The position numbers and the translations under genes were made by a program. From NCBI RefSeq assembly GCF_011044975.1, contig NZ_JAAKZV010000020.1, positions 1 through 64,000 on the forward strand: a DNA stretch of 64,000 bases, written 5' to 3'. The notes under the pieces are model-generated. The model had not been told where the DNA came from. It saw only the letters and a list, made by a program, of their open reading frames with translations, and ran no database searches. Positions 32,029 through 34,524 of the stretch are shown piece after piece. Within the stretch, counting starts at the first letter, position 1. Each line of letters starts with the position of its first letter. Source of the DNA: Streptomyces coryli (GTDB lineage Bacteria > Actinomycetota > Actinomycetes > Streptomycetales > Streptomycetaceae).

Positions 32029-32703
32029 ATGTTCGCTTCGTACCGCCGCCCCGCCCGGCTCACCACGCCCGAGGAGTCCCTCCCCGGCCGCTCGGAGCGC
32101 GCCTACGCCGTCCCCGACCGCCACACCGTGCTGGGCAACGCGCTGCTGGGCCCGTATCCGGAGGGGCTTGAGGTGGCCGACTTCGGCCTGGGCTGCTTCT
32201 GGGGCGCCGAGCGCGTCTTCTGGCAGACCCCGGGCGTCTGGACGACGCTGGCCGGCTACCAGGGCGGCCACACGCCGCACCCGACGTACGAGGAGGTGTG
32301 CTCCGGCATGACGGCGCACACGGAGGCGGTGCGGGTGGTCTACGACCCGTCGGCCGTCTCGTACGACACCCTCCTGAAGCTCTTCTGGGAATCCCACGAC
32401 CCCACCCAGGGCCACCGCCAGGGCAACGACGTCGGCACCCAGTACCGCTCCGCGATCTACACCCACTCACCGGACCAGGCAGCCGCGGCGGCGGCATCGC
32501 GGGAGTCGTACCAGAAGGTCCTGACGGCGTCGGGCTACGGCGAGATCACGACAGAGCTGGAGCCCGCGGAGGGCCGCGAGTTCTACCCGGCCGAGGCGTA
32601 CCACCAGCAGTACCTCTCAGACACAAAAAACCCGGACGGGTACTGCGGGTTGGGCGGGACAGGGATCTCTTGCCCAGTGGGCGTCGCTCCTGTTGAGGAC
32701 TGA
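32029..32703 (+). CDS. msrA: Peptide methionine sulfoxide reductase with replaced 3' end
   Basis: Reduces S-methionine sulfoxide in proteins and free form. The 224-aa protein has the catalytic motif GCFWGAE (Cys in the middle), [18 protein letters not shown], and recycling Cys residues in the tail [22 protein letters not shown] precedes the ATG. From residue 192 the tail ([10 protein letters not shown]...) comes from an inserted cassette. The displaced native tail lies at 33354-33446 with the same 15-bp sequence at its start. The enzyme should still work because the Cys pair is kept. Confidence 0.92.
32602..32616 (+). repeat. Left boundary repeat of the msrA cassette
   Basis: CACCAGCAGTACCTC at 32602-32616, identical to 33354-33368. 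It marks where the cassette replaced the msrA tail. Beyond it the two copies share about 90 bp of similar but not identical sequence. Confidence 0.7.
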
Positions 32704-32771
32704 GCGGTAGCGCGCTGCAGAGCCCGTTCTCCGGCGTACGCTTCCTTGCCTCTGACTTCCGGGGAGGGGCG

Positions 32772-33353
32772 ATGGGCGGTTTCTGGCGGCGTCGGCGGAG
32801 CCTGCCAACTGATGATGGTGCCAGTGGGCGTCTGGCGGTCTGGCCGGAGCGCTGGGGTGAGCTAGGCCCGGATGAGCGGATCGCTGCTGTGGCATCAGCG
32901 ATCGTGGATGGCATCACGGCGATCCCGGGCCAGGTGCGGGGCCTCTCCGAGGAGACCATCCGCGAGATCGAGCGCGACCAGCCTGCCCCACTGTGCGAGG
33001 CCTACCGCTGCTTCCTCAGCCTCCTCGGCGGCGGCGCCGGCCGTCTCTTCCAAGGAACTGACGTCTTCTACCCAGACGTCATGGGCCTCAGAGAGGGCGC
33101 GCTGGAACTCCTGGAGGAGAACGGCTTCCCGTTCGAGCTCCAGGAGACGGATCGCGTGTTCTACATGCACCAGGGCTATCTGTTCTGGTTTCTGAGAGGG
33201 ACTGGGCCCGATCCGGAAGTGTGGGGCTACGGGGAGGGTCAGCACGAGAACCAGCCGATCCTCGACTCCGACCGCTTCACCGACTGGGTCCGGGCGATGG
33301 CCGAGCAAGAAAAGGCGGCGTGGGCACGACTGAGTGTCACCGACGAGCTTTGA
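32772..33353 (+). CDS. SMI1/KNR4 (SUKH) domain protein in the msrA cassette
   Basis: A 193-aa cytoplasmic protein. The stretch APLCEAYRCFLSLLGGGAGR followed by FQGTDVFYPDVMGLREGALELLEENG, and later DRVFYMHQGYLFWFLRG and EVWGYGEGQHENQPI, is typical of the SUKH fold. SUKH proteins are frequent immunity proteins for contact-dependent and polymorphic toxins; here no toxin gene is beside it, so an orphan immunity role is inference. SD GGGGAGG stands just before the ATG and a TACGCT element is upstream. Base composition is visibly less G+C-rich than the neighbours, in keeping with recent arrival. Confidence 0.85.
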   Translation: MGGFWRRRRSLPTDDGASGRLAVWPERWGELGPDERIAAVASAIVDGITAIPGQVRGLSEETIREIERDQPAPLCEAYRCFLSLLGGGAGRLFQGTDVFYPDVMGLREGALELLEENGFPFELQETDRVFYMHQGYLFWFLRGTGPDPEVWGYGEGQHENQPILDSDRFTDWVRAMAEQEKAAWARLSVTDEL

Positions 33354-33446
33354 CACCAGCAGTACCTCGACAAGAATCCGGCGGGCTACTGCGGGCTGGG
33401 CGGGACCGGGGTCTCGTGCCCGGTCGGCATCACTCCCGCACTCTGA
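33354..33446 (+). pseudogene. Displaced native 3' end of msrA
   Basis: Thirty codons plus stop reading [19 protein letters not shown] and then [11 protein letters not shown], clearly an MsrA C-terminus without the rest of the gene. It begins right after the SUKH stop codon. Its stop overlaps the convergent LytR-CpsA-Psr gene by 17 bp, which indicates that this copy, and not the one now fused to msrA, is the original neighbour. It has no start codon of its own and is not expected to be translated. Confidence 0.85.
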
Positions 33447-34524
33447 CCTGACGGTCCTCGCGGAGGTCTGAGAAGAGCTGGGTCGACTTCTTCTTGTCCC
33501 AGGCGATGGCGCTGCCCTTGGAGGTTGTCAGGCCGGTGGTGGAGACCGGGACGGTTAGTTGTTTGCCATTGCCTGAGGTGATCTTGCGCATGGCGGTGAA
33601 GAGGCGGGTCAGTTGGGGGAGGCCGGTGGACTTGTCGACTATGAGGGTGTCCAGGCCGGCGCCGGCTGTGTTGTAGGCGGTGGAGGGGTTGAGGAGGACG
33701 TTCTTCGATGCGGCCTTCGCGGCCAGTGCCGCCAGGAATTTCTGCTGATTGCGGGAGCGGCCCAGGTCGCCTTCCTTTTCCTGGTGGCGTTGGCGTACGA
33801 AGCCGAGTGCCTCGCGGCCGTTCAGGTTGTGGCAGCCCTTGGTGAGGTCGAGGCCGGACTTTTCGTCGACGATGTGACGGTCCACGCACATGCGCACGCC
33901 GCCGACCGCGTCCACGATGCCGACGAAGCCGGCGAAGCCGATCTCGGTGTAGTGGCCGATGCGCAGGCCGGTGTTGGACTCGACGGTGCGGACGAGGAGT
34001 TCGGGGCCGCCGAGCGAGAACGCCGCGTTGAGCTTGTTCTTCGCCCGCTTGTGGTGGATGCCGGTCTTCGGGTCGACGTAGGCGGGGATGGTGACCCACG
34101 AGTCGCGCGGCAGGCTGGTCAGGGTGGCGCCGTGGGCGCCGGTGTGCAGCACCATCATCGAGTCGGTGCGGCGGCCCTCGGAGTCGAGGGAGGAGCCGGT
34201 GTGCAGGTCCTTCGTCTGCCGGTCGGTGAGGCCCTCGCGGCTGTCGGAGCCCACGATCAGGTAGTTGGTGCCCCGGCCGGGGGCGGGCCGGTCCTGCAGC
34301 CCGGACAGATCGGCCTGGCTGTCGAGGCGGGAACCCGCCCAGACATAGGTGCCCGCGCCGCCGAGCAGGGACAGCAGGACCAGGACGCAGACCGCGCGCA
34401 GCGCGCGCCGGGCCCGGGAGCGGCGGCGCCGGCTCGGCTTGCGCACGATCCGCCTGGGCCGTTCGCCGGGCGAAGTCGGGTGCGGCGGGCGGGAGTTCAA
34501 GCGGGAGTTCAAGCGGGAGTTCAA
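33430..34524 (-). CDS. LytR-CpsA-Psr family wall-polymer ligase
   Basis: Membrane-anchored phosphotransferase attaching teichoic acids or capsular polymers to peptidoglycan, 364 aa. After a basic cytoplasmic N-terminus a single helix (about 42-62, [20 protein letters not shown]) leads to the LCP domain. The conserved residues are visible: [44 protein letters not shown] and [18 protein letters not shown]. The start is a TTG 7 nt after GAGGTGA, directly after the stop of the upstream NodB/GT2 gene, so the two are coupled and probably act on the same polymer. Three 12-bp repeats encode the [11 protein letters not shown] start. Confidence 0.9.
34488..34524. repeat. 12-bp tandem repeat at the LCP start
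   Basis: The unit GCGGGAGTTCAA occurs three times and encodes (Leu/Met)-Asn-Ser-Arg repeats; every copy supplies an in-frame TTG, so copy-number change would move or multiply potential start codons without breaking the frame. Confidence 0.7.

Follow-up and report, generated by a model that had tools for sequence, protein, structure and literature searches.

The 3' end of msrA very probably serves as the attachment site (attB) of AICE-type elements that encode large serine recombinases (LSRs), and the duplicated msrA end in the window (the whole stretch of 64,000 nucleotides from Streptomyces coryli that was analysed) would go back to the integration of an element with a family A LSR, followed by gene loss. 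For the SUKH cassette of the window, the best interpretation is a relic or a non-autonomous cassette of this msrA LSR system. On either side the insert is bordered by a copy of the msrA 3' end, and the breakpoint falls at CCAGCAGTA. The cassette lies in the very part of msrA where the integrases of related species act, and the duplicated end is thus most likely the scar of a site-specific insertion.

Table 1. Features of the msrA locus, in positions of the window
Feature	Position	Strand	Pfam or remark
Hybrid msrA (native sequence as far as the core, followed by an element-type C-terminal tail)	32029..32703	+	PF01625
Shared core CACCAGCAGTACCTC, left junction (proposed attL)	32602..32616	+	
Fused msrA tail (P' arm side)	32602..32703	+	
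SUKH-1 (SMI1/KNR4) gene, immunity-type cargo	32772..33353	+	PF09346
Expected place of the right (P) arm of the element, within the 3' end of SUKH	33314..33353	+	
Shared core, right junction (proposed attR)	33354..33368	+	
Orphan msrA tail (B' arm), read as original, no gene before it	33354..33446	+	
LCP family gene	33430..34524	-	PF03816; 17-bp overlap with the orphan tail

With up to two mismatches allowed, CACCAGCAGTACCTC occurred exactly twice (0.08 occurrences expected from 100 shuffles). The original prediction, made from the letters alone, had described this 15-bp repeat in msrA and after the SUKH stop codon, a gene-less msrA tail behind SUKH, and an insertion of about 750 bp without an integrase at the msrA 3' end. 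All of this was recovered: the repeats start at 32602 and 33354, the SUKH TGA ends at 33353 with the second core copy beginning one base later, the distance from core to core is 752 bp, and no integrase was found. The tail behind SUKH would complete msrA in frame, and a script that joined the flanks at the core returned an in-frame msrA. SUKH is the sole gene called between the two junctions and has the orientation of msrA; its assignment to SUKH-1 rests on 30.7 bits for PF09346 (curated cut-off, 25.4), and its start is backed by the alignment of relatives from residue 4. No toxin gene was called inside the cassette, no LSR gene was present next to the proposed attR among the window ORFs of at least 100 aa, and queries for the AICE markers int, rep and tra and for LSRs had no match in the window. 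Relatives of the SUKH protein at E 1e-10 were limited to 3 of 392 Streptomyces genomes, and no clear msrA tail was seen near the two whose surroundings were read (L174 and L175).

Properly aligned, the fused and the orphan tail proved similar rather than unrelated, with 75 of 93 aligned bases identical (81%) and the remainder made up of 18 differences, plus gaps. As had been predicted, the fused tail differs from the orphan tail and is less GC-rich (0.608 versus 0.688; window, 0.719). The orphan tail outscored the fused tail at 74 of the 80 msrA loci among the matches listed, the fused tail scoring higher at six (L004, L019, L055, L070, L072 and L080). The best DNA matches of the fused tail were L134, L147 and L152, all located within or next to DNA that is rearranged or inserted; it also matched L055, over 46 bp, and ordinary tails came next at about 75-80%. 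The comparison across msrA loci and these best matches point to a native orphan tail and an incoming fused tail, so that the downstream copy is very probably the original. The same conclusion had previously been drawn from the 17-bp overlap of the orphan tail with the convergent LCP gene. The overlap and the conclusion stand, but the argument itself is weak, since LCP (E 1e-20) was found at none of the other loci then compared and the nearest relative found, G114 (L187; 82% at the DNA level over LCP and glycosyltransferase genes), lacks msrA in the stretch from its TPR gene to LCP. No strain showed an empty site, and in the nearest relative seen msrA was missing at that place; uninterrupted msrA genes, with no second tail, are present in other species.

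Among the 392 Streptomyces genomes, 284 matched the msrA tail query and 50 had more than one match (own table count), some of these being msrA paralogs. In the downstream DNA compared, at least one further tail (E 0.01 or better) was present at 10 of the 80 listed msrA loci; two of these tails are weak and may be due to chance (L021 and L057), and one locus is not from Streptomyces (L066). The orphan tails start at two places, namely site A, CCAGCAGTAC, as in the window, and site B, GGnACnGG, about 45 bp downstream within msrA. Some loci showed additional peculiarities. At L147 (G295:C110), only the C-terminal part of msrA is visible, and its tail is of the SDTKNP kind found in the window. In S. 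kebangsaanensis (L055/L139), the msrA tail is likewise of the SDTKNP type, with a frameshift after GYC; three more tail pieces lie downstream, and one of the intervals has an MsrA-like gene on the opposite strand.

A search with PF00239 in 25 genomes placed serine recombinases at a distance of about 50-100 bp from orphan tails in several of them, and no tyrosine integrase (PF00589) lay within 20 kb of msrA tails among the matches listed for the 25 genomes. With the LSR of G294 as the family A query, 66 of the 392 Streptomyces genomes matched at E 1e-40, and 30 loci were examined. All 13 LSRs with at least 57% identity to the reference were accompanied by an orphan msrA tail 48-74 bp from the LSR start, measured match to match, and these tails have the same boundary as that in the window. 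None of the 17 more distant LSRs among the 30 loci listed (at most 44% identity to family A) had such a tail, one of them showing a weak tail match past the far end of the LSR. The family B query, taken from G057, matched 90 genomes, and 30 loci were again examined. A partial native tail was located 22-49 bp from the LSR start in 8 of the 9 cases with at least 75% identity, the ninth LSR lacking its N-terminal part; the 21 more distant relatives among the 30 loci listed had none, three weak scattered matches aside. Family B is predicted to recombine msrA about 45 bp beyond the family A site. An LSR from Nonomuraea gerenzanensis (L270:17580-21161), 53% identical to family A and adjoined by RepSA pieces, sits between two pieces of an aldo/keto reductase-like gene (judged by eye) and not of msrA, possibly reflecting a shift in specificity. 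According to the counts for both families and the site of the Nonomuraea LSR, the predicted specificity for msrA goes with the LSR clade.

Several of the intervals bracketed by msrA and an orphan tail contain LSR, RepSA, FtsK-like Tra and GntR genes, both in family A (L151, L154, L155 and L259) and in family B (L131 and L133). At L154, the LSR comprises PF00239, PF07508 and PF13408, and RepSA (PF20199, E 3.2e-151), FtsK (PF01580) and GntR (PF00392) domains were also identified. Family A intervals form a size gradation between 16.8 and 2.2 kb, the remaining measured ones (2.2-10.4 kb) carrying the LSR and a few genes. In 19 of the 20 arrays with both msrA and an LSR (12 of family A and 8 of family B, L145 being counted with L158), the msrA tail keeps the GYC motif and the later cysteine; the exception, L250, has a stop within the tail. 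Both cysteines align in the solved MsrA structure 1fva, at positions that we take to be the recycling cysteines. The replaced msrA end of the window also looks complete, as the original prediction had held; that the hybrid MsrA has kept its function, as it had also held, we infer. What that prediction lacked was the cause, which fits a recognised type of event, the integration of AICE-type elements by LSRs, as relatives retain the integrase beside the same boundary. Integration would cut msrA at the HQQY codons, the element would bring a replacement tail with which MsrA stays complete, and the original tail would be left at the far end, beside the integrase gene. In the window, an element with a family A LSR would have integrated to give attL at 32602 and attR at 33354, and its integrase, replication and transfer genes would later have been lost, leaving SUKH. 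Decay of AICEs to cargo and two direct repeats, as well as accretion at one site, is described in passages of PMC9513070.

The left (P') arm of the window cassette is of the element type and resembles the arm common to the LSR-bearing L152 and L255. The right (P) arm had no match among five A1 arms (1939 of 2000 shuffles as good) or, by eye only, among the other P-arm subtypes; as it is unmatched in the LSR-bearing elements seen, the mobility of the window cassette is only putative. The right arms of two loci without an LSR, L012 and L137, gave 1637 and 1732 of 2000 shuffles as good against the same five A1 arms, and the P arm of L066 is of the family A type (6/2000); leave-one-out controls gave 0/2000 each. 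Dyad symmetry of the rebuilt attP was dropped as a test: 158 of 500 shuffles were as good for the window, and the symmetry was also non-significant in 11 of 11 LSR elements tested (best, L152, 41/500). Three genomes (L092/L139, L098/L138 and L135) have yet another type of right arm ahead of core A, ..GGTCAAGC..GAGC..; a CBS-domain-like gene (judged by eye) is close to it on the opposite strand in L138 and L139.

The original prediction had suggested looking for other SUKH genes flanked by msrA tails or by tails of other genes; genes between msrA tails were found in other species, also in short intervals without an LSR. Such intervals measure 735 bp (L038), 1004 bp (L149), 794 bp with a DUF4291-like gene (L063), 1656 bp with AlbA_2 and HATPase_c_4 (L137), 925 bp, bounded by two msrA tails, with a ParE-like toxin (L066), and about 0.8 kb with a DUF6247 gene and a 90-aa partner (several species); at the msrA site of L134 (G311), a WXG100/nuclease protein stands beside a SUKH-1 protein in 4.3 kb. 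The idea that immunity-type genes spread at gene ends held as regards insertion at a gene end, but the cargo is not specifically of the immunity type, since SUKH is one of many cargoes at msrA tails; the immunity role of the window SUKH is itself presumed. PADLOC returned no match for the SUKH proteins of the window and L134 or for the DUF6247 pair, and the L137 protein matched Argonaute-system models in part. At L066:4817-6114 ([Actinomadura] parvosata), a weak SUKH-like gene, convergent, follows the ParE-like toxin stretch.

A common P arm, akin to the arm of family B LSR elements, precedes the B core in most DUF4291 and DUF6247 cassettes; no P arm was seen after the gene in L101, L102, L137, L143, L144 and L267. 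GGGTCACnnG was followed by the B core at 18 of 30 distinct sites in 2.04 Mb of compared, partly redundant sequence, and three others look like truncated or varied forms of such sites (L114, L133 and L168). No LSR adjoined the site variant with ATGGCAGCACAGGC wherever it was seen, and the variant with ATAGGTACACCCTCG mostly had one beside it (exceptions, L044 and L159). DUF6247 distances track those of msrA (Mantel r = 0.72, 2/2000), which argues that DUF6247 is mostly inherited, perhaps with the exception of L055. The corresponding values were r = 0.41 (269/2000) for its 90-aa partner and r = 0.33 (242/2000), i.e., no tracking, for DUF4291. Some DUF4291 pairs are closer than their msrA genes (0.942 versus 0.836 for L102/L114), and the mean similarity of DUF4291 is no higher than that of msrA (0.837 versus 0.839). 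The distance comparisons are only suggestive of mobility of the recurring LSR-less cassettes. In L143 (G362), a second msrA copy lies about 12 kb downstream, followed by its own DUF6247 pair.

Integration of a family A element with later gene loss is supported by the LSR counts in both families, the AICE genes in relatives, the gradation in interval size, the left arm and the described decay of AICEs. Counted against it are the missing LSR in the window, the unmatched right arm, the non-significant attP dyad, the lack of an empty-site strain and the SUKH relatives (L174 and L175) without a clear msrA tail. Its main rival, which we regard as a serious but distinctly less likely possibility, is that the SUKH cassette has always been a small non-autonomous mini-cassette, inserted in trans by the LSR of another element. 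This would agree with the recurrence of LSR-less one- or two-gene cassettes between msrA tails of other species, with the homology between the P arm of the DUF4291 and DUF6247 cassettes and that of family B elements, with the 0.93-kb ParE-like toxin cassette of L066, which combines a P arm of the family A type with the absence of an LSR, and with the DUF4291 distances, which do not track msrA. It is harder to reconcile with the right arm of the window, which fits no LSR element seen, and with the tracking of msrA by DUF6247, as expected from inheritance; moreover, no cassette was seen to move.

The right arm of the window, not being LSR-like, would also suit a course of events without any recombinase, in which a foreign msrA end and SUKH were joined by homologous or illegitimate recombination at a short common stretch. 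The 15 identical bases at the junction could have provided such a stretch, and the right arms of the LSR-less L012 and L137 fit no A1 arm either. Such a joining is nevertheless improbable, given the element-type left arm and a breakpoint that recurs next to all 13 family A LSRs. Hardly any weight can be given to a duplication of the msrA end within the strain or to an assembly artefact: two similar tails do lie close together, but they differ at 18 of 93 aligned bases, plus gaps, the fused tail is closer to the insert tails of other species than to ordinary ends, and like arrangements occur in independent genomes. A viral origin was also considered and rejected, the two P-arm patterns, the family A LSR query and SUKH being unmatched in viral contigs. 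LSRs in phage records were all below 60% identity (about 30-36% among the matches listed), and the msrA tail peptide gave only weak matches or msrA of other bacteria in phages and plasmids.

Literature searches listed no relevant paper in which msrA, or methionine sulfoxide reductase, acts as such a site, and an earlier report may exist; in the main texts of PMC3218068, PMC9513070 and PMC10083194 the word 'sulfoxide' does not appear. As an attachment site for two LSR families, msrA may provide integration tools for Streptomyces, and the duplicated gene tail would become a readable integration scar. More speculatively, and with greater doubt than belongs to the integration itself, the msrA end could anchor a platform of serine-recombinase cassettes in actinomycetes, in which small non-autonomous cassettes, each closed by an msrA tail of its own, would line up in tandem after msrA, with AICE-borne LSRs mobilising them in trans. 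The proposed cargoes are SUKH, DUF4291, the DUF6247 pair, the ParE-like toxin, the AlbA_2 protein and the nuclease toxin with SUKH. Such a platform would be integron-like with another class of recombinase, and its site would be the end of a housekeeping gene, including the two C-terminal cysteines. The accessory genes that follow msrA (immunity, toxin-antitoxin and possibly defence) may make up a trafficked hot spot, and the LSR-less cassettes, if mobile, would represent a cassette system outside integrons.

Integron gene cassettes stand in tandem, hold one or two genes and each end in a copy of the recombination site, and the tandem one- or two-gene cassettes at msrA, each ending in a site copy, resemble them; the recombinases found at msrA are LSRs, and the end of a coding gene is the site. 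The replacement of the 3' end of the target gene has a counterpart in phage 21 and e14 of E. coli, where the element supplies a replacement 3' end for icd. SCC/ECC elements at rlmH are similar: according to passages of PMC6222049, LSRs insert them into the 3' region of a conserved gene, attL comes to lie within that gene, and both a remnant and multiple attR sites are reported. They differ in their CcrAB recombinases and their target gene, the autonomous relatives at the msrA site being AICEs. Serine integrases are recorded in only 19 of 144 AICEs in PMC3218068. The window cassette, in which no int, rep or tra was found, differs from AICEs in this respect, and it resembles them in its host group and in its site, the same msrA end being occupied in relatives by AICEs with RepSA, FtsK-like Tra, GntR and integrase genes.
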